Shown one piece after another: positions 9,872 to 26,733 of a DNA stretch of 64,000 nucleotides. Below the pieces are notes generated by a model, which worked only from the letters and a program-made list of their open reading frames with translations, searched no databases and was not told the origin of the DNA. Within the stretch, counting starts at the first letter, position 1. Every line of letters begins with the position of its first letter. The translations under genes and the position numbers were made by a program. Where the stretch lies: the NCBI RefSeq assembly GCF_018760365.1, contig NZ_JAHIAB010000002.1:248001-312000 (forward strand). The letters run 5' to 3'. This DNA comes from Pseudooceanicola endophyticus. GTDB lineage: Bacteria > Pseudomonadota > Alphaproteobacteria > Rhodobacterales > Rhodobacteraceae.

Positions 9872-11895
<2,024 letters not shown>

Positions 11896-11937: not shown

Positions 11938-13074
11938 TCAGGCTCCGGCCACCAGGATTTCGCGCGCGGTGGTGGTCAGGCGGCGGCAGCCGGTTTCCGT
12001 GACCTCGACGGTTTCCGACAGCGCGAGGCCCTTGGCGGTGGTGTAGAGGTGCAGCACCTGGCCCGCCTCGAACCGCCAGGTGGCGCCGGGATGCAGGCTG
12101 ATCACCGTTTCCGAGGACCGGGGCGTCTTGGCGTAGATGCCAAGGGCATAGCCGGTGATGTTGGGATATTCGTCGCGCAGCCCCTCGCGCAACATGCCCT
12201 CGCGCAGCAGGGCATCGGCGGCGCGGGCTTCCTCTCCGGGGCGGATGGCGGCGAACTGGGCGTCCTGAAGGGAGACCATGCGCGCCATCACCTCGCGGTC
12301 CTCGGCCGAGGGCGTGCCAAGGCTGATCGAGCGCATGAAGCGGGCCGAGTAGAAGCGCACGCGCGGCACCAGCTCCACGTGCAGGATGTCGCCTTCCGAC
12401 AGGCGGTCCTCGGTGAAGGTGGCATGCAGGAAGCCCATGCCATGCCCCTGCGCGGCCCGCGCCTGGCGCGCGATCGAGATCGGGCCGACCCAGTAGTCAT
12501 CCGCCCCCTGGGTCAGGTAGTGCTGCGCCCCGATGGCCGAGGCGTCCCGCGCCCGCATCCCCGGGGCGATCCCGGCGGCAATCGCGGCCATGGCGCCATC
12601 GCCGATGGCGGCGGCCTCGGCGATCAGCGCGATCTCGGCGGCATCCTTGACGTTGCGGATGGTGTTCGAGATCGCGTTCAGATCGACGAACTGCGCCCCG
12701 GGCAGCAGCTGCGACAGCCGGTCCCGGGTCCAGGCGGTGAAGCCGAAAGAGGTGAAATCCGCCCCGATCCGGGTCGCGCCGAAGCCCGCCAGCGCCTCGG
12801 CCATGGCGACATGGGGATCGGCGTGATCGGGATAGGTCACCACCCGGGGCACCCAGGTCGCGGCGCGGCAGGGCACCTCGTCGATGGCGCGCAGCACCCA
12901 GACGGGATCGCCCTCCAGCGGCAGGATGCAGCCCCGGTAGAAGGTTTCCGAGACGGTGTAGCCGGTCAGCCAGTGCAGCATCTCGGCGTGATCGCACAGG
13001 AAGACCTCGGCCCCGGCGGCGCGCATGGCAGCGCGCAGCCGGTCCACGCGATGCGCGTGGGAGGCCGGGATCAT
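11938..13074 (-). CDS. M24 (pita-bread fold) protein with degenerate metal site
   Basis: A 378-residue protein with the two-domain layout of creatinase/Xaa-Pro dipeptidase: an N-terminal creatinase-like domain (RLRAAMRAAGAEVFLCD, HWLTGYT) and a C-terminal M24 barrel. The canonical ligands of M24 metallopeptidases appear changed. DxG reads VELVP, SDxTRT reads SARFMRS, GHGIG reads GYALG and the EPG block reads HLYTT. Only the last Glu (SETVEVTE) seems kept. Metal-free M24 enzymes are known (creatinase, ectoine hydrolase EutD/DoeA), and they cut C-N bonds in small molecules. It is the last gene of the uptake operon, and its ATG overlaps the stop of the M20 gene (ATGA). A GGAG lies 8 bp upstream. 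Substrate unknown. Confidence 0.82.
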   Translation of the reverse strand: MIPASHAHRVDRLRAAMRAAGAEVFLCDHAEMLHWLTGYTVSETFYRGCILPLEGDPVWVLRAIDEVPCRAATWVPRVVTYPDHADPHVAMAEALAGFGATRIGADFTSFGFTAWTRDRLSQLLPGAQFVDLNAISNTIRNVKDAAEIALIAEAAAIGDGAMAAIAAGIAPGMRARDASAIGAQHYLTQGADDYWVGPISIARQARAAQGHGMGFLHATFTEDRLSEGDILHVELVPRVRFYSARFMRSISLGTPSAEDREVMARMVSLQDAQFAAIRPGEEARAADALLREGMLREGLRDEYPNITGYALGIYAKTPRSSETVISLHPGATWRFEAGQVLHLYTTAKGLALSETVEVTETGCRRLTTTAREILVAGA

Positions 13075-14297
13075 GCCGCGGGCTCCAGCCCGCAGATTTC
13101 CGCGATGGTCAGGATGTAGATCTTCACGCAGTCGATGAACTGGGACTTGCGGACGCGCTCGTCGGGCATGGTGTTGAATTCGCCGCCCGGGCCGCAGACG
13201 ATGCCTTCCATGCCGGCGGCGGCAAGGTGCGCCGCATCGGTGCCGAAGAAGCAGGGCGGGGCGATCGGGCCGGTCGGCTGGGGCATCCCGCGCACCGCCT
13301 CGTAGGCCTGGTTCACCACCTTGACGATTTCGCTGTCGCGCGAGACCTCGAAGGGGGGCATCTGCGGCTTGTTCTTGCGCAGGTCGTAGCTGTCGAGGGT
13401 CCATTGCAGGCCCGGGAATTCCAGCTCAAGCGCGCGCAGCTGGGCCCGCATGTCCTCCATCACGCTCTCGATGCTCTGCGAGGGGGCGTAGCGGCAGGTG
13501 CCGAGGATCTTGGCGCGGTCCGCGACCTGCGGCGGGCGCCATTCCTCGAACGTGTCGCCAAGGCCTGCGCGCACCACGCCGACGTGGCCGCGGTTCACCG
13601 CCTTGTGGTCGGCGGTCTTCGCCCCGGTGAAGGTCATCTTGTTGATGCGCGGCACCAGCGCGGCAGCGGCGGCCAGGGCATCGCAGGCCTCATGGCGCTT
13701 GGAGACGTGCCGGGTGTCGCCGGTCAGCTCGATCTGGTAGGAGAAGGCGCCCGAATGCAGCGTCAGCGCCTGGATGTCGGTGGGTTCGGAGTTGACGAAG
13801 TAATCCGCCCGCACGCCCTGTTCGAGCATCCGCACCGTGCCGATGCCGCCCTGAAGTTCGCCGACCACGAAGGACAGGATGACATCGCCCTTCGGGCGCA
13901 GGCCGGCCTTCAGGATCGTCTCGACCGCGCAGAGGTAGGCCGCATCGCCCGCCTTCATGTTCGACACGCCGATGCCGTAGATGAATTCCTCGTCGATGAC
14001 GCCGCCCCAGGGATCGACGGTCCAGCCGGTGGTGACCGGGTTGGTGTCGAGGTGGCCGTTGAACAGCAGGCTTTTCCCGCCGCCGGTCCCGCGCAGGGTG
14101 CCGATGGCATTGACCCGCTCGCCCTCGACCGGCTGAAGCTGTGCCTCAAGGCCCAGCTCTTCCAGGATGTCGCGCATGTGACGCGCCAGCACCAGCTCTT
14201 CCTCGGTTTCCGAGTAGCTCTTGTGCTGGACCATGTCGGCGAGCCTTGCGAGGCAGGCGGCTTCGTCGACGGATGCGATCAGGTCTTCGGGGGTCAT
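13071..14297 (-). CDS. M20-family hydrolase homologue with altered metal ligands
   Basis: A 408-residue protein of the ArgE/DapE/ACY1/CPG2 fold. The first His/Asp pair is intact (NGHLDTNP). The bridging-Asp motif DMKG reads SNMKAG, DEExG reads GELQGG (first Glu kept, second lost), the Glu of EPTD is kept, and the last His region reads EFNTMPDE where AHxxDE is usual. A dimerisation lid (TGDTRHVSKRHEACDAL) is present. Either the metal site is remodelled or this is a one-metal or non-hydrolytic homologue. It overlaps the ATPase gene upstream and the M24 gene downstream by ATGA, which means tight translational coupling. Start at 14297 with GGAG 8 bp before it. Confidence 0.85.
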   Translation of the reverse strand: MTPEDLIASVDEAACLARLADMVQHKSYSETEEELVLARHMRDILEELGLEAQLQPVEGERVNAIGTLRGTGGGKSLLFNGHLDTNPVTTGWTVDPWGGVIDEEFIYGIGVSNMKAGDAAYLCAVETILKAGLRPKGDVILSFVVGELQGGIGTVRMLEQGVRADYFVNSEPTDIQALTLHSGAFSYQIELTGDTRHVSKRHEACDALAAAAALVPRINKMTFTGAKTADHKAVNRGHVGVVRAGLGDTFEEWRPPQVADRAKILGTCRYAPSQSIESVMEDMRAQLRALELEFPGLQWTLDSYDLRKNKPQMPPFEVSRDSEIVKVVNQAYEAVRGMPQPTGPIAPPCFFGTDAAHLAAAGMEGIVCGPGGEFNTMPDERVRKSQFIDCVKIYILTIAEICGLEPAA

Positions 14298-16351
14298 CGG
14301 ACGGTCTCCGTGGTCTTCGGGGTCTTGAACTGCCAGATCGGGGGCACGGCGCGCAGTTCGGCGGTGTCGATGTGGCACAGGATGTCGTGATCCGCCCCGG
14401 GCTGGCGCAGGGGCGGGCGGGCGCTGTCGCAGAGCGCGCCGACATGGCGCGGGCAGCGGCTGGCGAAGGGGCAGCCCGACAGGGTGTCGGTGCGCTTGGG
14501 CAGGGCGCCCTGAAGGCGCACGCGCCGGGTCTCGCTGCCGGGATCGACGGAATGCGAGGACGACAGCAGCGCCTCGGTATAGGGGTGCCAGGGCGCGGCA
14601 TCGAGATCGGCGATCTCGCATTGCTCGACCATCTCGCCCAGGTACATCACCGCCACCCGGTCCGCGACATGGCGCAGGATGCCAAGGTCATGGGTGATGA
14701 AGACCAGCGCGGCGCCGGTCTCGGCCTGGATCTCGCGCAGCAGGCGGACGATGGCGGCCTGCACGGCGGCATCGAGGCCCGAGGTGATCTCGTCGCACAG
14801 GATCACCTGCGGGCGGGCGGCGAGCGCCCGGGCAATGGCGACACGCTGCTTTTCCCCGCCCGAAAGCTGGTGTGGGTAGCGGCTGGCGTAATCGGCGGGC
14901 AGGCGGACGCGTTCCAGCAGGCGGGCGATCTCGGGCGCGTAATCGGCGCGCGACAGGTCGGGGCGGAACAGGCGCAGCGGCCGCGACAGGATCGTCGCCA
15001 GAGAATGGCGCGGGTTCAGCGAACTGTCGGGGTTCTGGAAGATCGTCTGCACCCGGGCGCGCCAGGCGGAGGAATTCGGGCGCACCGGCTGGCCGGCCAG
15101 TTTCGTGGTGCCCTCGAAACCGTGCAGCCCGGTCAGCGCCCGCGCGAGCGAGGACTTGCCGCAGCCGCTTTCCCCCACCAGCGCAAGGGTTTCGCCCCGG
15201 CGCAGACGGAAGCTGACGTTGTTGACGGCGCGCACCTTGGCGGCGCTGCGGCCCCGCAGCCGGTCCACCAGGCTGTCGCGCCCGTAGGTGACCTGCATCC
15301 CCTCGACCTCCAGCAGCGCCTCGTCCTGGCGGGGCGAGGGCAGCGGAGCGGGGGCTTCGGGGGCTGGCAGGACCTCTCCGGCGCCGGCGCGGGCACAGGC
15401 GATGCGGCGATCGCCGGCCTCGGCCAGCCGCACGGGGGCGCCATCGCAGAGATCGGCACGGTGATGCGGGCAGGAGGCCGAGAAGATGCAGGCGGGCATG
15501 GTGCCGCGCCGGGGCGCGGGGCGGGCACCGCTGGCGGCAAGGCCGCGGCCCGTCTGGCGGTCCGAGGCGCGCGGCAGGCTGGCCAGAAGCGCCTGGGTGT
15601 AGGGGTGGCGGGGGGCGGCAAAGATGTGCTCTACCGGGCCTTCCTCGACGATGCGGCCACCGTAGATCACCGCGACGCGGTGGGCGATGTCGGCCACGGT
15701 GCCAAGGTCATGGCTGATGAACAACGCCGAGACCCCGGTGCGTTCCTGCAACGCGCGGAACAGGTCCAGCAGCGTCGCCGCCGTGGTGGCATCCAGCGCC
15801 GAGGTCGGTTCGTCGAACAGGATCAGCTCGGGTTCGCAGGCGAATGCCAGGGCCAGCACGACGCGCTGCTTTTCCCCGCCCGAGACCTGGTGGGGATAGC
15901 GGTTCATCATCGCCTCGGGGTCGGGCAGGCCGACCATGGCGATCAGTTCAAGCGCCCGGGCGCGGGCGCCGGAGGCATCCAGATCGGTGTGCCGTTGCAG
16001 CGTCTCCAGCAGATGCGCGCCCAGCGTCTGGACCGGGTCCAGCGTGGTCGCGGCGTTCTGGAACACCATGGCGATGCGGCGGCCCCGCAGGGCCTCCAAA
16101 GCGCGTTCGGGCAGGGCGGTGATGTCATCGCCGTTCAGCACGATGGCGCCGCGTTCCTCGGCGACCTTGCCGGGCAGGTCGCGGATCACCGCATTGGCGA
16201 GCGAGGATTTGGCCGAGCCGCTTTCGCCCACCAGTCCCAGCACCTCTCCGCGTCCGATGGTCAGGGTGATGTCGTCGAGGATGCGCACCGGGCCGGTGGC
16301 GGTGTCGTAGTAAAGCGCGTAGTCGCGCAGGCTCAGGGCAGTGTCGGTCAT
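14294..16351 (-). CDS. Fused double ATPase of an oligopeptide-class ABC importer (DppD-DppF type)
   Basis: A single 685-residue polypeptide with two complete nucleotide-binding domains, powering the two permeases encoded upstream. NBD1 (about 1-320): Walker A GESGSAKSS, signature VSGGEKQRV, Walker B ELILFDEPTSALD, switch FISHD. NBD2 (about 340-685): GESGCGKSS, LSGGEKQRV, VILCDEITSGLD, ITHD. Both end with the HPYTxALL oligopeptide-transporter tail and Cys-rich segments (CIFSASCPHH; CPFASRCP). In NBD1 the glycine before the Walker A lysine is Ala (codon GCC), so ATP turnover there may be impaired while NBD2 is intact. The gene starts 4 bp after the permease stop, with GGAG 7 bp upstream. Confidence 0.93.
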   Translation of the reverse strand: MTDTALSLRDYALYYDTATGPVRILDDITLTIGRGEVLGLVGESGSAKSSLANAVIRDLPGKVAEERGAIVLNGDDITALPERALEALRGRRIAMVFQNAATTLDPVQTLGAHLLETLQRHTDLDASGARARALELIAMVGLPDPEAMMNRYPHQVSGGEKQRVVLALAFACEPELILFDEPTSALDATTAATLLDLFRALQERTGVSALFISHDLGTVADIAHRVAVIYGGRIVEEGPVEHIFAAPRHPYTQALLASLPRASDRQTGRGLAASGARPAPRRGTMPACIFSASCPHHRADLCDGAPVRLAEAGDRRIACARAGAGEVLPAPEAPAPLPSPRQDEALLEVEGMQVTYGRDSLVDRLRGRSAAKVRAVNNVSFRLRRGETLALVGESGCGKSSLARALTGLHGFEGTTKLAGQPVRPNSSAWRARVQTIFQNPDSSLNPRHSLATILSRPLRLFRPDLSRADYAPEIARLLERVRLPADYASRYPHQLSGGEKQRVAIARALAARPQVILCDEITSGLDAAVQAAIVRLLREIQAETGAALVFITHDLGILRHVADRVAVMYLGEMVEQCEIADLDAAPWHPYTEALLSSSHSVDPGSETRRVRLQGALPKRTDTLSGCPFASRCPRHVGALCDSARPPLRQPGADHDILCHIDTAELRAVPPIWQFKTPKTTETVR

Positions 16352-16355
16352 GCGC

Positions 16356-17183
16356 TCACTCCGCCGTCTTGGGGTTGAGGACATCGCGCAGACCGTCGCC
16401 CAGCAGGTTGAAGCCGATGGCGACCAGCGCGATGGCGACGCCGGGGGCGATCACCGGCCAGGGGCTGCGGAACAGATGGGTGCGCGCCTCGGCGATCATC
16501 AGGCCCCATTCCGGCGCCGGCGGCTGGGCGCCCAGGCCCAGGAAGGACAGGGTGGCCAGCGTCATGATCGCGAAGGCGACGCGGATCGTGCCCTCGACGA
16601 TGACGGGGGCGATGGTGTTTGGCAGGATCTCGGCCAGGACGATCCAGATCAGGCTTTCGCCGCGGGCGCGGGCGGCAGAGACGTAATCGAGGCTGCGCAC
16701 CTGAAGCGTGACGGAACGCGCGATGCGCGCCATGCCGGGGGTGAAGGCGATGCCGATCGCCAGCACGGCGTTGATCGCGGAGGAGCCCAGCACGGCCAGG
16801 ATCATCAGCGCGAAAAGCAGCGAGGGGATCGCCATCAGCGCATCGGTCACCCGCATCAGCATCTCGTCCGCGAGACCGCCGAGGTAGCCCGAGACGACGC
16901 CGATCACGGCCCCCGCGACGGTGCCGATCAGGGTCGCCAGCAGCGCCAGCAGCACGGTGGAGCGGGCGCCGACCAGAACGCGGCTCAGCAGGTCGCGGCC
17001 GTACCAGTCGGTGCCCAGCGGGAACTGCGCGGAGGGCGCGGCGAAGCGGGAACCGAAGTTGAAGGCCTCCGGGTCGTTCGGGGCCAGCGACGGGCCCAGG
17101 ATGGCGATCACCAGCAGCGCCGTCACGATCACCAGCCCGAGGGCACCTTGCGGGTTCTTCAGCAGTGCGCGCAGGGTGCTCAT
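16356..17183 (-). CDS. ABC transporter permease, DppC/OppC type
   Basis: Inner-membrane permease of the dipeptide/oligopeptide/nickel class, 275 residues, with an N-terminal membrane segment followed by the TM_PBP2 domain. The EAA loop is visible (SLDYVSAARARGESLIWIVLAEILPNT). The N-terminus GLVIVTALLVIAILGPSLAPNDP is the usual OppC_N block with one transmembrane span. Its ATG overlaps the stop of the other permease gene by ATGA. It forms the translocation pore with the DppB-type partner. Confidence 0.94.
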   Translation of the reverse strand: MSTLRALLKNPQGALGLVIVTALLVIAILGPSLAPNDPEAFNFGSRFAAPSAQFPLGTDWYGRDLLSRVLVGARSTVLLALLATLIGTVAGAVIGVVSGYLGGLADEMLMRVTDALMAIPSLLFALMILAVLGSSAINAVLAIGIAFTPGMARIARSVTLQVRSLDYVSAARARGESLIWIVLAEILPNTIAPVIVEGTIRVAFAIMTLATLSFLGLGAQPPAPEWGLMIAEARTHLFRSPWPVIAPGVAIALVAIGFNLLGDGLRDVLNPKTAE

Positions 17184-18130
17184 TGGTACTGGATCCTCTT
17201 GTCGAGCGCCGCATAGGCAAGGTCGGCGGCCAGGTTGGCCAGCGCATAGGTCAGCGCCATGATCAGCGCGCCGGCCTGCAGCATCGGCAGGTCGCGGTTC
17301 TGGATCGCCAGGATCAGCTGGCGACCGATGCCGGGGAAGGCAAAGACCTCTTCCACGACGATGACGCCGCCGATCAGGTAGCCGACGTCGAGCGCGATCA
17401 CGGTGATCGCCGGCAGCATGGAGTTGCGCAGCGCGTGGCGGTAGATCACCTGCCGGCGCGACAGGCCGCGCAGCCTTGCGGCGCGGACGAAGTCGCTTTC
17501 CATCGTGTCCACCATCTCGGAGCGCACCATGCGGCTGATATGGGCGATGAGGATGATCGCCAGCGTGATCACCGGCAGGGCGATATGGTGCAGCGCATCC
17601 AGCGGGTCATCGGCGAAGGAGGTGTAGCCCGAGGCCGGGAACAGCCCCACCGAAGGCCCCGCCAACCAGGCCAGCAGCAGCGTCGCCAGCACGAATTCCG
17701 GCAGCGACACGCCGAGGTAGCTGATCACCGAGAGGCCCAGGTCGGTCTTGCCGCCGCGCCGGGTGCCGGCCAGAACGCCCAGCGGAATGGCGATGACGCA
17801 GACCAGCAGCAGCGACAGGATCGCCAGGATCGCCGAACGTCCGAAGGCCGCCAGGATCGTCGGGCCGACCGGCTGGCTGGTGCGCAGCGAGGTGCCGAAA
17901 TCGCCATGCAGCACGCGGCCCAGCCAATGCCCATATTGCAGCCAGGCGGGATCGCCCAGACCCAGCTTGGCATTCAGCGCGGCCAGGGCTTCGGGGGTGG
18001 CATATTCGCCCAGGATCATCGTCGCGGCATTGGCGGGCAGAAGCTGGGTCACGCCGAAGACGATCAGCGAAACGAGGAAGGCGGTCAGCGCCAGATAGGC
18101 AAGGCGCCGCAGCAGGAAGCTGGCCGACAT
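17180..18130 (-). CDS. ABC transporter permease, DppB/OppB type
   Basis: Inner-membrane permease of 316 residues with about six transmembrane helices and the DppB EAA loop (FVRAARLRGLSRRQVIYRHALRNSMLP). The N-terminal FLLRRLAYLALTAFLVSLIVFGVTQLLP helix is typical of the family. The ATG at 18130 is preceded by GGGAG. It pairs with the DppC-type subunit encoded next in the operon. The distance from the binding-protein gene is 111 bp and contains a strong hairpin. Confidence 0.94.
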   Translation of the reverse strand: MSASFLLRRLAYLALTAFLVSLIVFGVTQLLPANAATMILGEYATPEALAALNAKLGLGDPAWLQYGHWLGRVLHGDFGTSLRTSQPVGPTILAAFGRSAILAILSLLLVCVIAIPLGVLAGTRRGGKTDLGLSVISYLGVSLPEFVLATLLLAWLAGPSVGLFPASGYTSFADDPLDALHHIALPVITLAIILIAHISRMVRSEMVDTMESDFVRAARLRGLSRRQVIYRHALRNSMLPAITVIALDVGYLIGGVIVVEEVFAFPGIGRQLILAIQNRDLPMLQAGALIMALTYALANLAADLAYAALDKRIQYQ

Positions 18131-18211
18131 GGCAGGGTCTCCCGGGCTTTGGGGGCTGGGGGTCCGCGCAAGGGGCGCGGCAGGAACGGGGCCGCGCATA
18201 TCGCACGGCAG

Positions 18212-18233
18212 GCCGGCCCCCGAAGGGGCCGGC
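18212..18233 (-). terminator. Hairpin between binding-protein and permease genes
   Basis: A perfect 9-bp stem GCCGGCCCC / GGGGCCGGC with a 4-base loop lies 9 bp beyond the binding-protein stop, with no T-run. Such hairpins commonly attenuate transcription or protect the 3' end, so that the binding protein is made in excess over the membrane subunits. Confidence 0.6.
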
Positions 18234-18241
18234 TGGGGGGC

Positions 18242-19789
18242 TTACTTGGACAGCCAGACCTTGTGCAGCGCGAAGGTCGCACCGCGCGGGCTTTGTTCAT
18301 AGCCCTGAACATGGTCGCCGCGCGCGCCCAGCAGGTCGAAGAAGCAGGGCACCAGCGCGGGAATGTCGGTGCGCATCAGCTCCTGGGTCTTGGCGTAAAG
18401 CTCGGCGCGCTTGTCGGTGTCGGTGGTGGCATCTGCCTCGGCGACCAGCTTGTCGAACTCGGCGTTGTTCCAGCGGGTTTCGTTCCAGCTGGCGTCCGAG
18501 GTGAAGAGCAGGTTGAAGATCGCGCCCTCGGTCGGCTGCATGTTGTAGTAGCCGACGTAGAACTTGCCCTTCTTCCACACCTGATCAAGGTAGGTCGGGT
18601 GGTCCATGGTCTGCACGGTGATGTCCCATCCGCCGGGCTTGGCCATCTCGCGCAGGACCACGGCCATGGCGGCGCGGTAGTCGGGCTTGACGGAGGCGAC
18701 CAGCTCGATCTGGATGCCGTCGGGATAGCCGGCCTCGGCCAGCAGCGCCTTCGACTTCTCGGGGTCGTAGGCTTTCAGCGGCGCATCGGCATAGTACTTG
18801 TAGGCGGCGTTGACGGGGGTGTCGTTGCCCGGGGTCCCGAAGCCTTCGGCCACCATGTCCACCATGGCCTGGCGGTCGACACAGTAAGAGAGCGCCTCGC
18901 GGACCTTGGGGTTGTTGAAGGGCTCGACCGTGCAGTCCATCACCACGTCCAGGAACCGGCCCGAGGGGGTGCGCATCCCGGTGACGCCCTTGCCATCGGC
19001 GATCCGCTTGTAATCGGTGGGCTGCACTTCGGTCAGCAGGTCGACTTCGCCGGCCAGCATGGCGGCGGCAGCGCCGGCGGCATCGGGGAAGGTGCGCACG
19101 ACGATCTCGTCCAGGTAGGGCTGGCCCTCGATGTAGTAATCGGGGTTCTTCTCGACCACGGCGCGGTCATCGGCGACGAATTCCTTAAGCCGGAAGGGGC
19201 CGGAGCCGACGGGGGTGGTGCCGAGGCTGTCGAAGTCGTTCTCGATCACCGAGGCGGGCAGGATCTTGGCGGTCGGGTAGGTCAGCGCGACCGGCAGGTC
19301 GGCATAGGGCGTCGAGGTGCGGAAGATCACGCCGGTCTCGCCATCGGCCACCACTTCGGAGATCGGGCCAAGGTTGCGGCTGCCCGGCGCGGCGGTGGCC
19401 GGATCCAGAAGCTTGGTGAAGGAGGCGACGACATCGGCGGTGGTCACCGGCGCCCCGTTCGAGAAGGTCGCGCCCTGGCGCAGGGTGAAGTGCCACTCGG
19501 TGGCATCGTCATTGGCGCTCCATTCCGTCGCGAGGTCGGGTTGCGCGGTCATGTCGGCGCCCAGCATGGTCAGGCCGGAATAAAGCAGCTCTGCCAGCAG
19601 GTATTCGGAGTTCAGCCGCACCAGCATCGGGTTCAGCACCGAGGGGGTGATGTTGAGGGCCAGCCGCAGCGTGCCGCCGGGCTGGATGTCCTGGGCACGG
19701 GCGATCGAGGCCAGGCCCGGCAGGGTCACGAGCGCGCCCGAGGCGGCGGCCGTGCGCAGGAAGCTGCGGCGGTCGAGGGTGAAGGTCAT
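18242..19789 (-). CDS. Tat-exported oligopeptide-class substrate-binding protein
   Basis: Periplasmic binding protein of the SBP_bac_5 family (DppA/OppA/NikA), 515 residues. The N-terminus carries a twin-arginine motif (DRRSFLRTAAASG) and a hydrophobic stretch ending in ARAQD, which suggests folded export through Tat. Family blocks include YSGLTMLGADM, WHFTLRQGATFSNGAPVTTADV and NNPKVREALSYCVDRQAMVD. The DppA fold binds peptides, but also nickel, haem, opines and sugar conjugates, so the ligand is open. The start at 19789 has GGAGAG just upstream. It belongs to the GntR-linked operon and is followed by a hairpin before the permeases. Confidence 0.93.
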   Translation of the reverse strand: MTFTLDRRSFLRTAAASGALVTLPGLASIARAQDIQPGGTLRLALNITPSVLNPMLVRLNSEYLLAELLYSGLTMLGADMTAQPDLATEWSANDDATEWHFTLRQGATFSNGAPVTTADVVASFTKLLDPATAAPGSRNLGPISEVVADGETGVIFRTSTPYADLPVALTYPTAKILPASVIENDFDSLGTTPVGSGPFRLKEFVADDRAVVEKNPDYYIEGQPYLDEIVVRTFPDAAGAAAAMLAGEVDLLTEVQPTDYKRIADGKGVTGMRTPSGRFLDVVMDCTVEPFNNPKVREALSYCVDRQAMVDMVAEGFGTPGNDTPVNAAYKYYADAPLKAYDPEKSKALLAEAGYPDGIQIELVASVKPDYRAAMAVVLREMAKPGGWDITVQTMDHPTYLDQVWKKGKFYVGYYNMQPTEGAIFNLLFTSDASWNETRWNNAEFDKLVAEADATTDTDKRAELYAKTQELMRTDIPALVPCFFDLLGARGDHVQGYEQSPRGATFALHKVWLSK

Positions 19790-19839
19790 GAGGGCTCTCC
19801 TGTTGGGTCTTGTTATGGTCTTGAAGGGTCTTTTGACGA

Positions 19840-21114
19840 TCAGGCCGGATCGGGGATCGCACCGTCCTCGGCAAGGAACAGGGCGATGGCCTGCGACAGG
19901 GCGCAGAGATCGGCGCGGGTGGTGAATTCGTCGGCAGCGTGGATGTTGCGGTCGGGGCGGGCGAGGCCCCCCAGCAGCATGTGGCGCAGCCCGGCCTTCT
20001 GCACCCAGCCGAAATCCGACGAGGTGCCCGAACCGTAGCGCGCGAAGGCGCTTTCGGGCAGGCCGAAGGCCTGGGCGCGGGCGCGGGTCCAGCGTTCGGT
20101 CGCGGGGCCGTCGGGGTCGGACACGGGGGGCAGGTGGCCGGTCTGGATCAGCTCCCAGCCAAGCGCGGGGGTGTCGCGCAGCGCCTCGGCGATGGTCTCG
20201 CGGATCTCGCGCTCGACGGCCTCGGCGTCTTCCTCGGCCAGGTAGCGGCGGTTCACGGTGGCGACGGCGGCCCCGGGGATGGCCGAGCCCTTGTCGCCCG
20301 AATGCACCGCCGTGATGTTGAGCCGCGCGCGCAGCGGGCCCTTGGCCCAGGGCGGGGCGGGCAGCGCGGTCTCGCGCGCCTCGATCACGGGTTTCAGCCC
20401 CTGAAGCGCCAGCAGCGCCGGCAGCAGCGCCTCCGCGGCATTGATTCCGCGGTCGGGTTCGCCGGAATGGCTGGCCTTGCCGGTCAGCGTCAGCGTCAGG
20501 TCCATGGAACCCAGGCACCCGGCCCAGATCCGCGGCTCGGCCGAACCGTTGAGGTTCAGCAGCACCTCGGGCAGGGGCATCGTCTCGGCCAGGTGGCGGA
20601 TGCCGGGATAGCGCCCGCCTTCCTCGTCCGAGCAGAAGGCCAGCACCGGGCGATAGGCCAGCGGCGTGCCGGCAATGGCCAGCCGCAGCAGCGCGTCGCG
20701 CACCGCCACGATGGTCCCCTTCATGTCCGCCGTGCCCCGGCCCAGCAGCCGTCCGTCGCGTTCGGTGACGGTCAGGGGATCGCTGCTCCAGCCGTCGCCG
20801 ATGGGGGCGGTGTCGGTGTGGAAGTAGATCATCGCCTCGGGCTGGTCGTCGTGGGCGCCGGGCATCTCGGGGCGCAGCAGCAGGTTCACCCGCGCGCCGC
20901 GCAGCCCCGGACCGTCCCAGAGCGCCTGCGGCACCTCGATGCGCTCGGCCGTGCCGCCCAGGGGCGCAAAGCTCTGCTCCATCAGGTCGGCAAAGGCCGC
21001 ATAGCCGTCGCCCGGCGGCATCACCGTCGGACATGCCACCATTTCGGTCAGCTGGCTGACCATTTCGTCGGCATCCGGTGCGCCGAGCAGGGGATCTGAG
21101 TCGGTATATCTCAT
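19840..21114 (-). CDS. M20-family amidohydrolase/deacylase (ArgE/DapE-like)
   Basis: Zn- or Co-dependent hydrolase of about 424 residues, first gene of the operon. All canonical M20 motifs are present: FHTDTAP, GRGTADMKGT, SDEEGG, a dimerisation domain with TGKASHSGEPDRGINA, and the C-terminal HAADE. Expected chemistry is removal of an N-acyl group or cleavage of a terminal amide from an imported compound. No signal peptide, so cytoplasmic. The ATG at 21114 lies inside a palindrome, and the -10-like TATATA is only about 5 bp upstream. The message may therefore be leaderless, because no Shine-Dalgarno is visible. Confidence 0.88.
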   Translation of the reverse strand: MRYTDSDPLLGAPDADEMVSQLTEMVACPTVMPPGDGYAAFADLMEQSFAPLGGTAERIEVPQALWDGPGLRGARVNLLLRPEMPGAHDDQPEAMIYFHTDTAPIGDGWSSDPLTVTERDGRLLGRGTADMKGTIVAVRDALLRLAIAGTPLAYRPVLAFCSDEEGGRYPGIRHLAETMPLPEVLLNLNGSAEPRIWAGCLGSMDLTLTLTGKASHSGEPDRGINAAEALLPALLALQGLKPVIEARETALPAPPWAKGPLRARLNITAVHSGDKGSAIPGAAVATVNRRYLAEEDAEAVEREIRETIAEALRDTPALGWELIQTGHLPPVSDPDGPATERWTRARAQAFGLPESAFARYGSGTSSDFGWVQKAGLRHMLLGGLARPDRNIHAADEFTTRADLCALSQAIALFLAEDGAIPDPA

Positions 21115-21124
21115 ACCTATATAG
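21103..21124. promoter_or_regulatory. Probable GntR operator and divergent promoter
   Basis: GGTAT-ATCTC-ATACC (21103-21117) is a perfect 5-5-5 palindrome over the start codon of the M20 gene. It is followed by CTATATAG (21117-21124), also palindromic, which can act as a -10 for the minus-strand operon. HutC-type GntR proteins bind AT-containing palindromes with GT/AC ends of this kind, and the regulator gene is adjacent. Confidence 0.6.
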
Positions 21125-21197
21125 AAATACGGATGGACGGCTCTTGGCAAGTGTGGTTTCTGTTGAAACATTAAGCAGTCTGAGAACGGAGCAGTGC

Positions 21198-21995
21198 ATG
21201 GCGGGGAAGGTGGACGTGGATCCGCAGGTGCAGGAGGAGGGGTCCGACGGGACTCTGACCGAGGGCGCCCTGGTGAAGACCCCGCTGCACGAGCAGGTGA
21301 AGGAACGCATCCTGCGCCGCATCATCCTGGGCACCTGGGGAGAGGGCTTCGTGCTGCCGCCCGAGACCGAGCTGGCGCGCCAGTTCGGCGTCTCCTACGG
21401 GACGATCCGCCGGGCAATGACCGACCTGACCGCCTCGGGGGTGATCATGCGGCGGCGCAAGACCGGCACCGTGGTCACGGGGCGCACGCCGCACCATTCG
21501 ATGTCACAGTTCTACCGCTACTACCGGCTGCACGGGCGCGACGGGCGGCTGCTGAACAGCGATACCGTGCTGGCCGATGCCTGCCACCGCCCGGCCACCC
21601 AGTCCGAGGCCGAACTGCTGGAGATCCCCGCCGGCGCCCCGGTGGCCTTCATGCTGCGCCGCCGCTTCCACGAGGGGCGCGTGGTGATGGTGGACCGCGT
21701 GACGGTGCCGCTGGCGCTGGCCCCCGATTTTCCCGCCACGATCGAAGAGATGCCGACGCTGGTCTACAAGTGGCTGCTGGAGCATCACGGGTTGCGGCTG
21801 GCCGCCGTGCGCGAAAAGCTGGTGGCGCGGCTGGCCACCCCGGAAGACCTGAAATGGCTGGAGCTGCCGGCGGACGCGCCGCGCGCGGTGCTGGATATCG
21901 AGGAGGTCTCCTACGATTCCCTGAACCGTCCGCTGGTCGCGATGCGCCATGCCGCCCTGACCGAGGATCACTGCTACATCAACGAGATACGCTGA
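21198..21995 (+). CDS. GntR-family transcriptional regulator, HutC subfamily
   Basis: A 265-residue regulator. After a 25-residue acidic leader come the GntR winged helix (HEQVKERILRRIILGTWGEGF...PPETELARQFGVSYGTIRRAMTDLTASGVIMRRRKTGTVV) and a UTRA ligand-binding domain (about 105-265). HutC-type members usually repress catabolic or uptake genes until bound by a pathway intermediate. The gene is divergent from the M20-ABC operon, which is the probable target. ATG at 21198 with GGAG 6 bp upstream. It converges on the next gene with only 3 bp between stops. Confidence 0.92.
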   Translation: MAGKVDVDPQVQEEGSDGTLTEGALVKTPLHEQVKERILRRIILGTWGEGFVLPPETELARQFGVSYGTIRRAMTDLTASGVIMRRRKTGTVVTGRTPHHSMSQFYRYYRLHGRDGRLLNSDTVLADACHRPATQSEAELLEIPAGAPVAFMLRRRFHEGRVVMVDRVTVPLALAPDFPATIEEMPTLVYKWLLEHHGLRLAAVREKLVARLATPEDLKWLELPADAPRAVLDIEEVSYDSLNRPLVAMRHAALTEDHCYINEIR

Positions 21996-21998
21996 GGC

Positions 21999-23525
21999 CT
22001 AGCCGATCTTCAGAACCGCTTTCGCGGCGCGGAGCGTGGCCTCGGGGCGGCCCGAGGCATCCAGCTCCTGCCACTCGCCCAGTGGCCCGCTGCCCTGCGC
22101 CAGCTGCCCCGCGAGCACCAGCGTATCGGCATCCGACCAGTCGTTGCGCCGTGCCGCGACGCGCGCGTCCAGCACCGGCTCGGGTGCCTCCAGCCAGAGG
22201 CCGGTGACCGGGCAGCCAACATCGCGCCCCAGGGCGGTGACCGCCTCGCGCCGTGCCGGATCAAGGAAGGTGCCGTCCAGCAGCACCGATTGCCCGGCCT
22301 CCAGCAACAGGCGCGCCCGCGCCAGCAGCCCCTCGTAGACCGCGCCCCGTGCGGCGATGCCATAGGCCGTGCCCGGCATCTTGCGCTCGCGCCCGACATG
22401 GGCCGCGCTCTTGCGGGCCTCGTCGGTGGACAGCAGCACCGCGCCCAGCTCGGGGGCCAGCGCCCGCGCCAGCACCGACTTGCCCGAGCCCGAGACCCCG
22501 CCCACCGCCACCAGCCGCGCAGGCGTCGGGCGCAGCACCGCGCAGGCCTGCGCCAGATAGGCCGCGATCTCCCGGGCGGAGGCGCCGGGCTGGCCGGTGG
22601 CCGCATCGGTTTGCAGCAGCACCATGGCCCTGATCATCGCCCGGACCGACAGGAACAGCGGGAAGGCGGCCAGACCGGCATCCTCCTGGCCCCCGGCGGC
22701 AGCCAGATAGGCCGAGAGCACCAGCGTCGCGGCGCGCGCCAGCCCCCGGTGATCCAGGTCCATCACCAGGAAGGCCAGATCGTACAGTACGTCGCAGGTG
22801 CCAAGGTCTTCGCTGAATTCAAGGGCATCGAAGGGGACGGGGGCGCCGTCGATCAGCACCAGGTTGCGCAGGTGCAGATCGCCATGGCCGCGCCGCCTGT
22901 GCCCGGCGGCGGCACGGTCCTCCAGCAGAGGGCCCTGCGCCTTCAGCGCCCTGCCGGCCTGCGCCAGGGCCTCGGGCAGCTGCGCGGTGCCGGGCGCGCC
23001 GGGAAATTCGCCAAAGACCCGGGCCAATTCCTCCAGGATCGCCTGCATCGGTGCGGCGCCGGGTCCCGGGCGGATCTCGGCCCCGGCATGGTAGGCCTGC
23101 ACCATCCGCCCGATCGCCCCCGCCAGATCATCGTCCAGCGCGCCGCGCGCGGCCACGGCCTCAAGCTCGTTCTCGGCGGGAAAGCGGTGCATCCGCAGCA
23201 CCCAGTCGATCACCGGGCCGGAGCCGTCGATCTCCGGGCTATCGCTTTCCGGGCCCTCGGTCACCGGCACGACATCGCGGTACAGCATCGGTGCGGCGGG
23301 GGCGTTCAGCGCCAGCTCCCGCTCCAGCAGGGCATGGCGCAGCTCCGGGGTGGAGAGGTCCATGTAATCGTAGCAGACCGCCCGCTTCAGCTTCAGCACG
23401 CTGTCGCCCAGCAGGAAGATCACCGCGCCATGGGTGTCGATGCGTTCGGGGTGCGGCCCGTCGGCGGGCGCGCCGAAGGCGGCGGGGGTGGAGAGAAACG
23501 CGATGGTTGCCGCTTGCGTGCTCAT
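21999..23525 (-). CDS. Fused aminoglycoside-phosphotransferase-like / AAA kinase protein
   Basis: A 508-residue two-domain protein. The N-terminal part (about 1-330) is APH/choline-kinase-like, with the catalytic loop HGDLHLRN and a following FDALEF in place of the metal-binding D-x-E segment. The C-terminal part (about 345-508) is a P-loop kinase-like ATPase with GVSGSGKS and a STDEARKS lid-like segment, resembling gluconate kinase/zeta-toxin-like proteins. This fusion is known in proteobacteria but has no settled function. Nothing here supports antibiotic resistance. ATG at 23525 with GGAGG upstream. Confidence 0.85.
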   Translation of the reverse strand: MSTQAATIAFLSTPAAFGAPADGPHPERIDTHGAVIFLLGDSVLKLKRAVCYDYMDLSTPELRHALLERELALNAPAAPMLYRDVVPVTEGPESDSPEIDGSGPVIDWVLRMHRFPAENELEAVAARGALDDDLAGAIGRMVQAYHAGAEIRPGPGAAPMQAILEELARVFGEFPGAPGTAQLPEALAQAGRALKAQGPLLEDRAAAGHRRRGHGDLHLRNLVLIDGAPVPFDALEFSEDLGTCDVLYDLAFLVMDLDHRGLARAATLVLSAYLAAAGGQEDAGLAAFPLFLSVRAMIRAMVLLQTDAATGQPGASAREIAAYLAQACAVLRPTPARLVAVGGVSGSGKSVLARALAPELGAVLLSTDEARKSAAHVGRERKMPGTAYGIAARGAVYEGLLARARLLLEAGQSVLLDGTFLDPARREAVTALGRDVGCPVTGLWLEAPEPVLDARVAARRNDWSDADTLVLAGQLAQGSGPLGEWQELDASGRPEATLRAAKAVLKIG

Positions 23526-23592
23526 GGGGGCCTCCGTGACTGCGCGGACAGTCTGGCACCCGGCAACCGGCAAGGCCATGCGCTGGATCAAG

Positions 23593-24967: not shown

Positions 24968-26596
24968 TCAGCCCGCCCGCCACCAGCGGTCGTAATGCAT
25001 CTCCAGCGCCGGGTGCATCTCGGCGCCCATGACATCGGGCTTCATGTGCCGGAACAGCGACCGCCAGTAGGGCTGCACCATCACCGCCTCCTCCAGCAGG
25101 ATGGTTTCCAGCCGGGCCATGATGGCGCGCCGGGCCTCGGCATCGGCCAGCGACAGCGCCTGGTCGAGCAGCTGGTCGAACTCCGGGTTGGCCATCCCGG
25201 TCTCGTTCCAGGACGCGCCCGAGCGATAGGCCAGCGCCAGCACCTGCACCCCGAGGGGCCGCATGTTCCATTCCGTGGCCGAGAACGGGTAGCTCAGCCA
25301 GTCCTTCCAGAAGGTCGAGCCGGGCAGGATGGTGCGGCGGATCTTCAGCCCGGCGTCGCTGATCTGGGCGGCCACCGCATCGCAGGTCTCCGACTGCCAC
25401 TGGTCGTCGAGCGAGATCAGCTCGAACTCGGTCTCCTCCAGCCCCAGGGCGCGCATCTGCGCCAGCGATCCCGCCGGGTCGGTCGGGATGCCCGGCACCT
25501 TCGCGTATTCGGGGTGGATCGGGCAGACATGGTGGTTCTCGGCCACCGTGCCGTCATTGTGGTAGCCCAGCTCCAGGATCACCCGGTTGTCCACCGCATT
25601 GACCAGCGCATGGCGCACCTGCGGATCGTCGTAGGGCGGATGGGCGCGGTTGAAGCGCACGGTCATCGTCGCGGCGGTCATCGCCTCGGATTTCTTCCAG
25701 CCCAGGGCATCGAGCCGGGCGATGAACTCTCCGGTGGACTGGTAGGTCATGTCGATCTGGTCGGCCTCGGCGGCGGCCATCCAGGAGGCCATGTCGGTGC
25801 CATGGTCGAGGAATTCGATCCGGTCGAGCCAGGCGCCCTGGCCCCACCAGGACCGGGCGGTGTCGCGCACCAGCACCTGGCGCTCTCCGGGCAGATTGGT
25901 TTCGGGCAGGTAAGGGCCGGTGCCGATGGCACCGACCGAAGGATCGCCGCCCCCGTAGGAAGGATGCACCAGCGCGGCGGGGTAATCGGCAAGGCTCGGG
26001 ATCAGGGTGATGTCGGGGCGGGCGCAGGCCAGCTCGACCGTGTGTTCGTCGGGGGTCCGGATCGCATCGTCTCGGGCCTGGCCGGTGGCGGGATCGATCA
26101 GCGATCCCAGCCGCGAGGCCATGGAATTGCCGGCGGCGGCGCTGTCGCACCAGCGGGCGATGTTGAAGGCCACGTCCCGGGCGCCGAAGGCATCGCCGTT
26201 CGACCACAGCACATCGCGGCGCAGGTGCAGCCGGTAGAGCGTGGCATCATCGTTGACCTCCCAATGGCTGGCCAGCCGCCCCTCGAAAGTGCCGTCGCGC
26301 TGGTACTCGACCAGGTATTCCAGCCATCCGCGGGTGAAATTGGCCATCTCGGGCCAGTCGAAGCTGCGCGGGTCCTTCAGCGCCTTGCACGACATCTGCA
26401 CCCGCAGCGTGCCCCCGGCCCGGGGCGCCTCCTGGGCGCGGGCCGGCTGGGCCAGCCCGCCCAGGGCATGGGCCGCGGCGCCCGTGAGCCCAAGCGCGGT
26501 GGCCCGTGCCAGGAACTCCCGCCGGTCCAGGCGACCGGCGCGGAAGTCGCGGGCATACATCCGGGCGGCGGGGTGGGGCGGGTCGTGCTGGGGCAT
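24968..26596 (-). CDS. Orphan Tat-type oligopeptide-class binding protein
   Basis: A periplasmic SBP_bac_5 protein of 542 residues with a twin-arginine signal ([34 protein letters not shown], about residues 21-54). Family blocks include [36 protein letters not shown] and [18 protein letters not shown]. No permease or ATPase is next to it, so it must share a transporter encoded elsewhere or have a sensing role. ATG at 26596 with GGAGAGGA upstream. The promoter region holds the palindrome GGCAT-N5-ATGCC. An AraC regulator is encoded immediately upstream on the same strand. Confidence 0.92.
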
Positions 26597-26620
26597 TGTC
26601 CTCTCCGTGGCGGGACTCCG

Positions 26621-26636
26621 GGCATCCAGAATGCCA
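26621..26636. promoter_or_regulatory. Palindrome / possible sigma-54 site before the orphan binding protein
   Basis: GGCAT-CCAGA-ATGCC is a perfect inverted repeat 25 bp before the start. Read on the minus strand, TGGCATTCTGGATGCC also fits the sigma-54 -24/-12 spacing (TGGCA...TGC). The two readings compete: an operator or a sigma-54 promoter. Confidence 0.4.
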
Positions 26637-26733
26637 CAGGCCTGCCCCTGGGAGGACACTTTTTCGGGTCATTTCTTCCGGATAGGGGAACCGACCGGTG
26701 CGGGGGCGCGGCCCCGGGGCGCCGGTCGCGCGT

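Follow-up and report, generated by a model that had tools for sequence, protein, structure and literature searches.

A conserved importer operon with fixed metal-ligand losses in an M20-family and an M24-family protein of Pseudooceanicola endophyticus

The subject of this work is an operon for uptake and hydrolysis in a 64,000-nucleotide stretch of the Pseudooceanicola endophyticus genome (5.2 Mb), comprising positions 248001-312000 of contig NZ_JAHIAB010000002.1 and referred to here as the window (analysis label G000:C12). Seven minus-strand genes, running from 21114 down to 11938, lie opposite a plus-strand gene for a UTRA-type GntR regulator (21198-21995). In this order, they encode an M20-family hydrolase (M20a), a solute-binding protein (SBP), two permeases (P1 and P2), a fused double ATPase, a second M20-family protein (M20b) and an M24-family protein (M24). 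The core of the operon is the importer together with M20b, which is its constant enzyme, and M24 is accessory. The metal-site losses of M20b and M24 are fixed and do not reflect decay. The interpretation favoured here, with moderate confidence, is that of an operon under repressor control which takes up and breaks down one small amide or peptide-like compound of a non-standard kind.

Active sites of the three enzymes

Residue conservation was assessed in 86 loci, consisting of the best 80 of 256 M20b relatives from a scan of genome contigs with the M20b alignment and six plasmid loci picked by M24. M24 was matched in 52 of these loci, M20a in 82 and the regulator in 77. The M24 of one locus (L100) and the M20a of two others (L055, L075) were too short and were left out of the residue counts, giving n=51 and n=80.

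Dinuclear M20 enzymes such as DapE bind their metals through five ligands, His, Asp, Glu, Glu or Asp, and His. With this set and M20a from the same operon as references, M20b (13071-14297, minus strand, 408 amino acids (AA)) has Asn113 in place of the bridging Asp, Leu148 in place of a Glu and Asn375 in place of a His, and keeps His82 and Glu171. His82, Asp84, Asn113, Glu147, Leu148, Glu171, His197 and Asn375 occur in 86/86 loci, meaning that three of the five ligands are replaced throughout while the catalytic Glu147 and the lid His197 are retained. M20b is under strong purifying selection: its ratios of non-synonymous to synonymous substitution rates (dN/dS) to three relatives, 0.128, 0.103 and 0.140, are the lowest of the four genes tested in the same comparison (M20a 0.23-0.32, M24 0.21-0.26, SBP 0.16-0.17). 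The original prediction that the metal ligands of the second M20 protein and of M24 are largely lost was thereby confirmed. Its description of the two as a degenerate pair is misleading, since no variation occurs at the substituted positions and M20b shows the tightest constraint among the genes tested. Decay of the pair was rejected on the same grounds of invariant substitutions and low dN/dS.

The AlphaFold2 model of M20b (mean predicted local distance difference test score (pLDDT) 88.4) shows an M20 fold, with a Z score of 39.9 to 3pfo (root mean square deviation (rmsd) 3.4, 389 residues aligned), and the mono-zinc DapE entries 4o23 and 3isz are among its structural matches. M20b stays under the cut-offs of the NCBIfam models among the matches listed (25 of 45). 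Taken together, M20b would be a mono-metal or metal-free hydrolase. Two more distant relatives (L018, L019; 33-36 % identity) have GEL in place of DEE and lack further ligands as well. As these outgroup M20 proteins are ligand-depleted as well, the losses may predate the operon, and metal-depleted M20 proteins may form a larger group with other gene neighbours. In two genomes (G201 and G258; loci L012 and L017), the M20b match contains one in-frame TGA each, where the gene may be broken or misassembled.

M24 metallopeptidases of the Xaa-Pro type coordinate their metals through Asp, Asp, His, Glu and Glu. Compared with this set and with the M24 paralogues of the same genome, M24 (11938-13074, minus strand, 378 AA) has Glu234 at the first Asp, Arg245 at the second Asp and Tyr309 at the His, has lost the fourth ligand and keeps Glu354 as its sole ligand. 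Glu234, Arg245, Met247, Arg248, Tyr309, His217 and His342 are invariant in 51/51 proteins, and Glu354 is found in 50/51. M24 is accordingly described as a EutD-like pita-bread hydrolase predicted to be metal-free.

The nearest relative of M24 is the ectoine hydrolase EutD/DoeA and not creatinase, as sequence, tree and structural comparison agree. EutD/DoeA ranked first when the PDB was searched by phmmer with M24 (6twk, E 6.3e-24), and a quick maximum-likelihood tree placed DoeA, the operon M24 and the variant M24 proteins in one clade (support of 98 in the Shimodaira-Hasegawa-like approximate likelihood ratio test (SH-aLRT)). The AlphaFold2 model of M24 (pLDDT 92.7) gave Z scores of 42.3 against EutD 6yo9 (rmsd 2.2, 365 aligned) and 37.9 against creatinase 1chm (rmsd 2.3, 362 aligned). 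In the alignment to 6twk, the active-site positions E255 and H238 of EutD are matched by Glu234 and His217 in 51/51 proteins; EutD reportedly forms a covalent intermediate on Glu255.

An ectoine hydrolase proper was rejected for M24 on family cut-offs and residues. M24 scored 101.6 bits with TIGR02993 (cut-off 613) and 111 bits with NF038259 (cut-off 575), and five more proteins, three operon M24 and two variant M24, likewise stayed under the ectoine-hydrolase cut-offs. The DoeA-like paralogue of the genome has the Glu, Tyr, His and last Glu in common with M24 and carries Pro at the position of Arg245. Creatinase proper was rejected on residues, with Glu/Arg/Tyr in M24 versus Asn/Ala/His in own8, a paralogue that we take from its motif to be creatinase-like and that matched no NCBIfam creatinase model. 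The link to ectoine hydrolase made in the original prediction is supported by structure and tree. A DoeA-like ectoine hydrolase gene was found elsewhere in the genome (G000:C23:340321-340947, L007), with 546.8 of 613 bits. No EutE was found in this genome with TIGR02994, for which the control is weak, as it matched in 1/14 genomes only and below the cut-off. A Pfam scan likewise revealed no EutE-type domain among the operon genes.

M20a (19840-21114, minus strand, 424 AA, with a longer start possible at 21171) had been predicted to be a canonical M20 hydrolase, but the Glu of its GEPT motif varies: 10/80 proteins have it at position 193, next to the invariant Asn189, Gly190 and Ala192. His99, Asp101, Asp130, Glu164, Glu165 and His392 are invariant in 80/80. 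Four ligands (His99, Asp130, Glu165, His392) are constant and the fifth position, whose residue is assigned from sequence only, appears variable, so that M20a appears not to be fully canonical. The lid His is present in both M20 proteins (His216 in M20a, His197 in M20b), and from the alignments their ligand losses look complementary.

Conservation, distribution and gene order

The complete order of the window, from the regulator through M20a, SBP, P1, P2, ATPase and M20b to M24, is conserved in 44/86 loci. The same order without detectable M24 occurs in 30/86, one of which (L033) stops 464 bases beyond M20b. Because these 30 loci keep the order, M24 is accessory, and M24 as the heart of the pathway was rejected. 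The remaining 12/86 loci lie on short contigs, have no GntR match, have their best ATPase match elsewhere (L067, L092, L105) or are rearranged (L059). Three of the four loci without M20a sit on short contigs. Where M24 follows M20b, the junction lies within -25 to +17 nucleotides in 50/51 loci. The predicted combination of uptake and hydrolysis in one operon, with a conserved gene order, is supported.

By organism names, the ordered operon occurs in alpha- and gammaproteobacteria. M20b is sparsely distributed: it was found in 10/295 genomes of the same family at E <= 1e-60, including this genome and one distant relative (36 %), and, at E <= 1e-100, in 2/398 genomes sampled from the phylum, again including this genome. 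A tblastn search of plasmids with M24 returned 56 records, every one below 60 % identity. The window arrangement was found in six annotated plasmid regions, from Terrarubrum, Neorhizobium, Sodalis, Agrobacterium vitis, Pantoea dispersa and Rhizobium beringeri; in the latter, three genes are absent from the annotation table and were located by tblastn. A Variovorax plasmid locus (L120) encodes the regulator, the importer and M20b, and neither M20a nor M24 was found there by annotation and tblastn, the sole tblastn match to M20a being M20b itself. No relative of M20b was found in a scan of viral contigs.

A second architecture was identified in five genomes of the same family (L111, L112, L113, L114, L116). 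Here, an M24-type gene comes first, followed by SBP, P1, P2, ATPase and M20b. M20a was not matched in any of the five, and the M24-type gene, whose product is 24-28 % identical to the M24 of the window, holds its place. In 5/5 cases, this first protein has lost the metal ligands, keeps the Glu at the nucleophile position and carries Lys instead of the second Asp and His instead of the last Glu. A second M24-type gene follows M20b in 4/5 of these loci; its product, aligned for two (L112, L114), keeps the Glu at the nucleophile position and has lost the other ligands. For L112 and L114, the two loci tested, the adjoining regulator belongs to the FCD/GntR type. The rearranged locus L059 contains one M24 of the window kind and one of the other kind. 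Therefore, the importer and M20b pair with different M24 proteins predicted to be metal-free.

Importer, regulator and surrounding genes

The importer is of the peptide type (Dpp/Opp/Nik), with an SBP_bac_5 binding protein, two BPD_transp_1 permeases and ATPase domains with oligo_HPY. The SBP (18242-19789, minus strand, 515 AA) had been predicted to be exported by the twin-arginine translocation (Tat) system. This is supported by an RRx[FLIM] motif within the first 45 AA in 77/83 homologous binding proteins, whereas the Pfam TAT_signal score of 20.6 bits lies slightly below the cut-off of 22.7. Its closest solved structure by sequence is AgaA (6hlx, 176.8 bits, query residues 49-416), which we take to be a binding protein for the opine agropinic acid, an amino-acid conjugate. 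Other PDB matches include NikA and 6lu2, the latter presumably an EDTA-type binding protein. Based on family models, P1 (17180-18130, minus strand, 316 AA) is of the DppB/NikB type, P2 (16356-17183, minus strand, 275 AA) of the DppC/NikC type and the fused ATPase (14294-16351, minus strand, 685 AA) of the DppD-DppF type. The binding protein and both permeases score best with nickel-type Opp/Nik models, all below the cut-offs. The ATPase scores best with a dipeptide model (518.9 bits, cut-off 408) and also passes the NikD and NikE models.

The Pfam domains of the operon products are SBP_bac_5, BPD_transp_1, ABC_tran in two stretches, Peptidase_M20 twice, and Peptidase_M24 with Creatinase_N. All genes predicted between 11938 and 21995 are present, and the four predicted tight junctions are exact: P1/P2, ATPase/M20b and M20b/M24 overlap by 4 nucleotides each, and P2 and the ATPase gene are separated by 4. 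Wider spacers of 50 and 111 nucleotides separate M20a from SBP and SBP from P1.

The regulator (265 AA) belongs to the HutC/UTRA type of GntR proteins, with 73 bits for UTRA (cut-off 23.8) and 61.2 bits for GntR (cut-off 27). Immediately upstream of M20a lies TTTCTATATAG (21117-21127, minus strand), a putative operator for this regulator; alternatively, the site may be a promoter element. Its core, CTATATAG, is present in 62/77 intergenic stretches between the regulator and M20a genes, including that of the window, versus 0.2 expected from mononucleotide shuffling. These 77 stretches are related and not independent, and they include one that is empty (L049) and some that are shortened by the choice of start. 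The 11-mer occurs once in the genome, at this position, which is not telling by itself since a reversed-letter control also occurs once. It stops two bases ahead of the ATG of M20a, and no ribosome site is evident there (21114-21130, minus strand). As CTATATAG-NN-ATG is present in several near relatives too, the start choice or the translation of M20a may be unusual.

The operon is flanked by thiC (10033-11895) and by a gene with an AAA_33 domain (21999-23591). A gene nearby (24968-26659, minus strand) encodes a further binding protein of the SBP_bac_5 peptide type whose start is Tat-like.

Several genes beside related operons provide hints about the substrate. A ddpX-type gene lies directly behind M24 in 4/86 loci, two of them from Pantoea dispersa, and in Pantoea SOD02 (L022, L024, L039, L077 and L117; Sodalis, Pantoea and Erwinia), and a 36-residue stump is left in L054. 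With 283.1 and 271 bits, two DdpX proteins score above the cut-off (176) of the D-Ala-D-Ala dipeptidase model NF007557; DdpX is not among the operon genes of the window. In Paracoccus aminophilus, genes for an amino acid racemase and a D-cysteine desulfhydrase adjoin the operon on the opposite strand. In three gammaproteobacterial loci (L043, L044, L047), the gene behind M20b encodes an OprD-type porin, and in a fourth (L040) the next frame has no family match. Together with the similarity to AgaA, they suggest, weakly, peptides with D-amino acids or lactam-like conjugates as substrates. Neither the AgaA nor the DdpX lead could be traced to a substrate, and a search of the open-licence literature found no account of ligand binding by AgaA.

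Discussion

In the favoured interpretation of a regulated uptake-and-breakdown operon, the compound would be captured by the putatively Tat-exported binding protein and imported by the Dpp-like importer. M24 might then attack it without a metal, with Glu234 as the nucleophile in analogy to Glu255 of EutD and with His217 and Glu354 assisting. M20b may need no more than one metal to cleave an amide, since it retains the first-site set of His82, possibly Asn113, and Glu171 along with Glu147 as base and His197 as lid residue, and the second site (Leu148, Asn375) is gone. The final step could be performed by M20a, whose M20 site is near-normal. Release of the regulator from the putative operator at 21117-21127 would be triggered by the compound or a product. 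As to the nature of the compound, a D-amino-acid-containing or lactam or cyclic dipeptide-like substance from around plants and algae is a low-confidence guess. The operon is plasmid-borne in rhizobia, Agrobacterium vitis, Pantoea and others, and occurs in presumably marine genera such as Marinomonas. For this reason, the substrate could be a plant or algal compound that is widespread and unrecognised as a bacterial nutrient.

Several points weigh against this interpretation. The 80 genome loci were selected by their similarity to M20b, so that the counts favour M20b conservation and close relatives. M24 was not detected in the 30 otherwise ordered loci, and only a 5' stump of it is left in three loci without M24 (L064, L087, L088); M24 therefore cannot be essential everywhere. 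The tree that places M24 beside DoeA is based on a quick search and has long branches. The operator 11-mer and its backwards control are equally frequent in the genome, and the ddpX hint comes from few related Enterobacterales, two of the four loci representing one species. Finally, M20b could be non-catalytic.

A more far-reaching view is that M20b founds a class of M20 enzymes using one metal or none. With exchangeable metal-free M24 partners, it would then form an importer-fed module for metal-independent C-N hydrolysis, a second bimodule beside EutD/EutE that arose by parallel metal-site loss in two unrelated peptidase folds and serves an undescribed nutrient, possibly a D-peptide, a lactam or a chelating conjugate. 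This view is put forward tentatively and is rather doubtful as a whole.

Among the alternatives, a non-catalytic M20b acting as a partner or sensor subunit is considered unlikely. It might, for instance, form a hetero-oligomer with M20a in which two incomplete sites make up one enzyme. This would fit the complementary ligands (His82 and Glu171 in M20b; His99, Asp130, Glu165 and His392 in M20a), the lid His kept in both proteins (His197; His216) and the presence of M20a in 82/86 M20b loci, with three of the four exceptions on short contigs. However, the catalytic Glu147 is found in 86/86 loci, the Variovorax locus has the regulator, importer and M20b without M20a, and five loci have an M24-type gene at the place of M20a, which is not matched there. 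Since M20b is kept where M20a is missing, in the Variovorax locus and in the second architecture, a shared site cannot be the general rule.

Ordinary di- or oligopeptide salvage, in which common peptides are imported and all three proteins act as usual metallopeptidases, is likewise improbable. The likeness of the importer to Dpp/Opp/Nik systems, the peptidase folds of the M24 and M20 proteins and the four of five ligands kept in M20a speak for it, but the ligand loss is fixed in two of the three enzymes, and M24, with one of five ligands as aligned, has no dinuclear site left.

That the operon detoxifies or uses a peptide-like compound with metal-chelating or antibiotic properties, for which metal-free enzymes would be advantageous, is very unlikely. 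The binding protein and permeases score best, below the cut-offs, with nickel-type Opp/Nik models, and the binding protein is distantly AgaA-like with further matches to NikA and 6lu2. Against this, the ATPase scores best with the dipeptide model and passes NikD and NikE too, so that these models do not discriminate, and creatinase and EutD presumably lost their metals without a chelator. No metal gene was conspicuous beside the operon in the annotated regions read; the P-type ATPase of L117 and the ferric receptor of L021 are examples of unrelated neighbours.

It is highly improbable that ectoine or a closely related cyclic amidine is used, with M24 opening the ring and an M20 protein acting as deacetylase: EutD is nearest to M24, and another deacylase could serve in a genome without a EutE match (weak control), but M24 lies far below the ectoine-hydrolase cut-offs, DoeA residues are replaced by Arg245, Met247 and Arg319, another gene of the genome is closer to DoeA, and the Dpp-like importer is, to our knowledge, outside the known ectoine importer types.

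In public annotations, the enzymes are named Xaa-Pro peptidase, M20 metallo-hydrolase and metallopeptidase, and in one record acetylornithine deacetylase and succinyl-diaminopimelate desuccinylase. Their active sites make these names doubtful. A search of the open-licence literature found no description of the operon or of this gene combination. The operon would mark an uncharted nutrient pathway with directly testable enzymes, and the fixed metal-site losses in two unrelated peptidase folds within one operon provide a testable case of a metalloenzyme turning into a metal-free hydrolase.

Comparison with known systems

AgaA is the closest solved binding protein by sequence; it is distant, and the best stretch spans query residues 49-416. 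The ddpXABCDF genes of E. coli encode a D,D-dipeptide system. A peptide-type importer is common to both systems, and a DdpX gene accompanies the operon in some Enterobacterales loci; in contrast, the operon of the window has no DdpX and carries M20 and M24 enzymes. M20b resembles ArgE/DapE in its M20 fold (Z 37.0 to DapE 5vo3) and in the retained His82, Asp84, Glu147, Glu171 and lid His, and differs from them by three replaced ligands in all loci and by scores below the listed NCBIfam cut-offs. Creatinase, which we take to be metal-free, shares the M24 fold, whereas the residues of own8 differ from those of M24 and own8 falls outside the EutD-side clade.

The closest parallel to the hydrolase pair is EutD/EutE. 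The two are described as a bimodule for which a stable complex had not been observed in vitro, and EnuR as a MocR/GabR regulator of the GntR superfamily (PMC8739950). The parallel of an M24 hydrolase with a deacylase, drawn in the original prediction, is therefore fair. The differences are that the operon M24 lies far under the EutD cut-offs and has Arg245 and Arg319 where DoeA has Pro and Asp, that its partner is of the M20 type and not EutE, that the importer is of the peptide type and that M24 is optional. In both systems, a hydrolase gene stands beside a deacylase-like gene under a regulator of the GntR superfamily, and M24 shares with EutD/DoeA an M24 fold without a dinuclear metal site and has the Glu, Tyr, His and final Glu of the DoeA-like protein of this genome.

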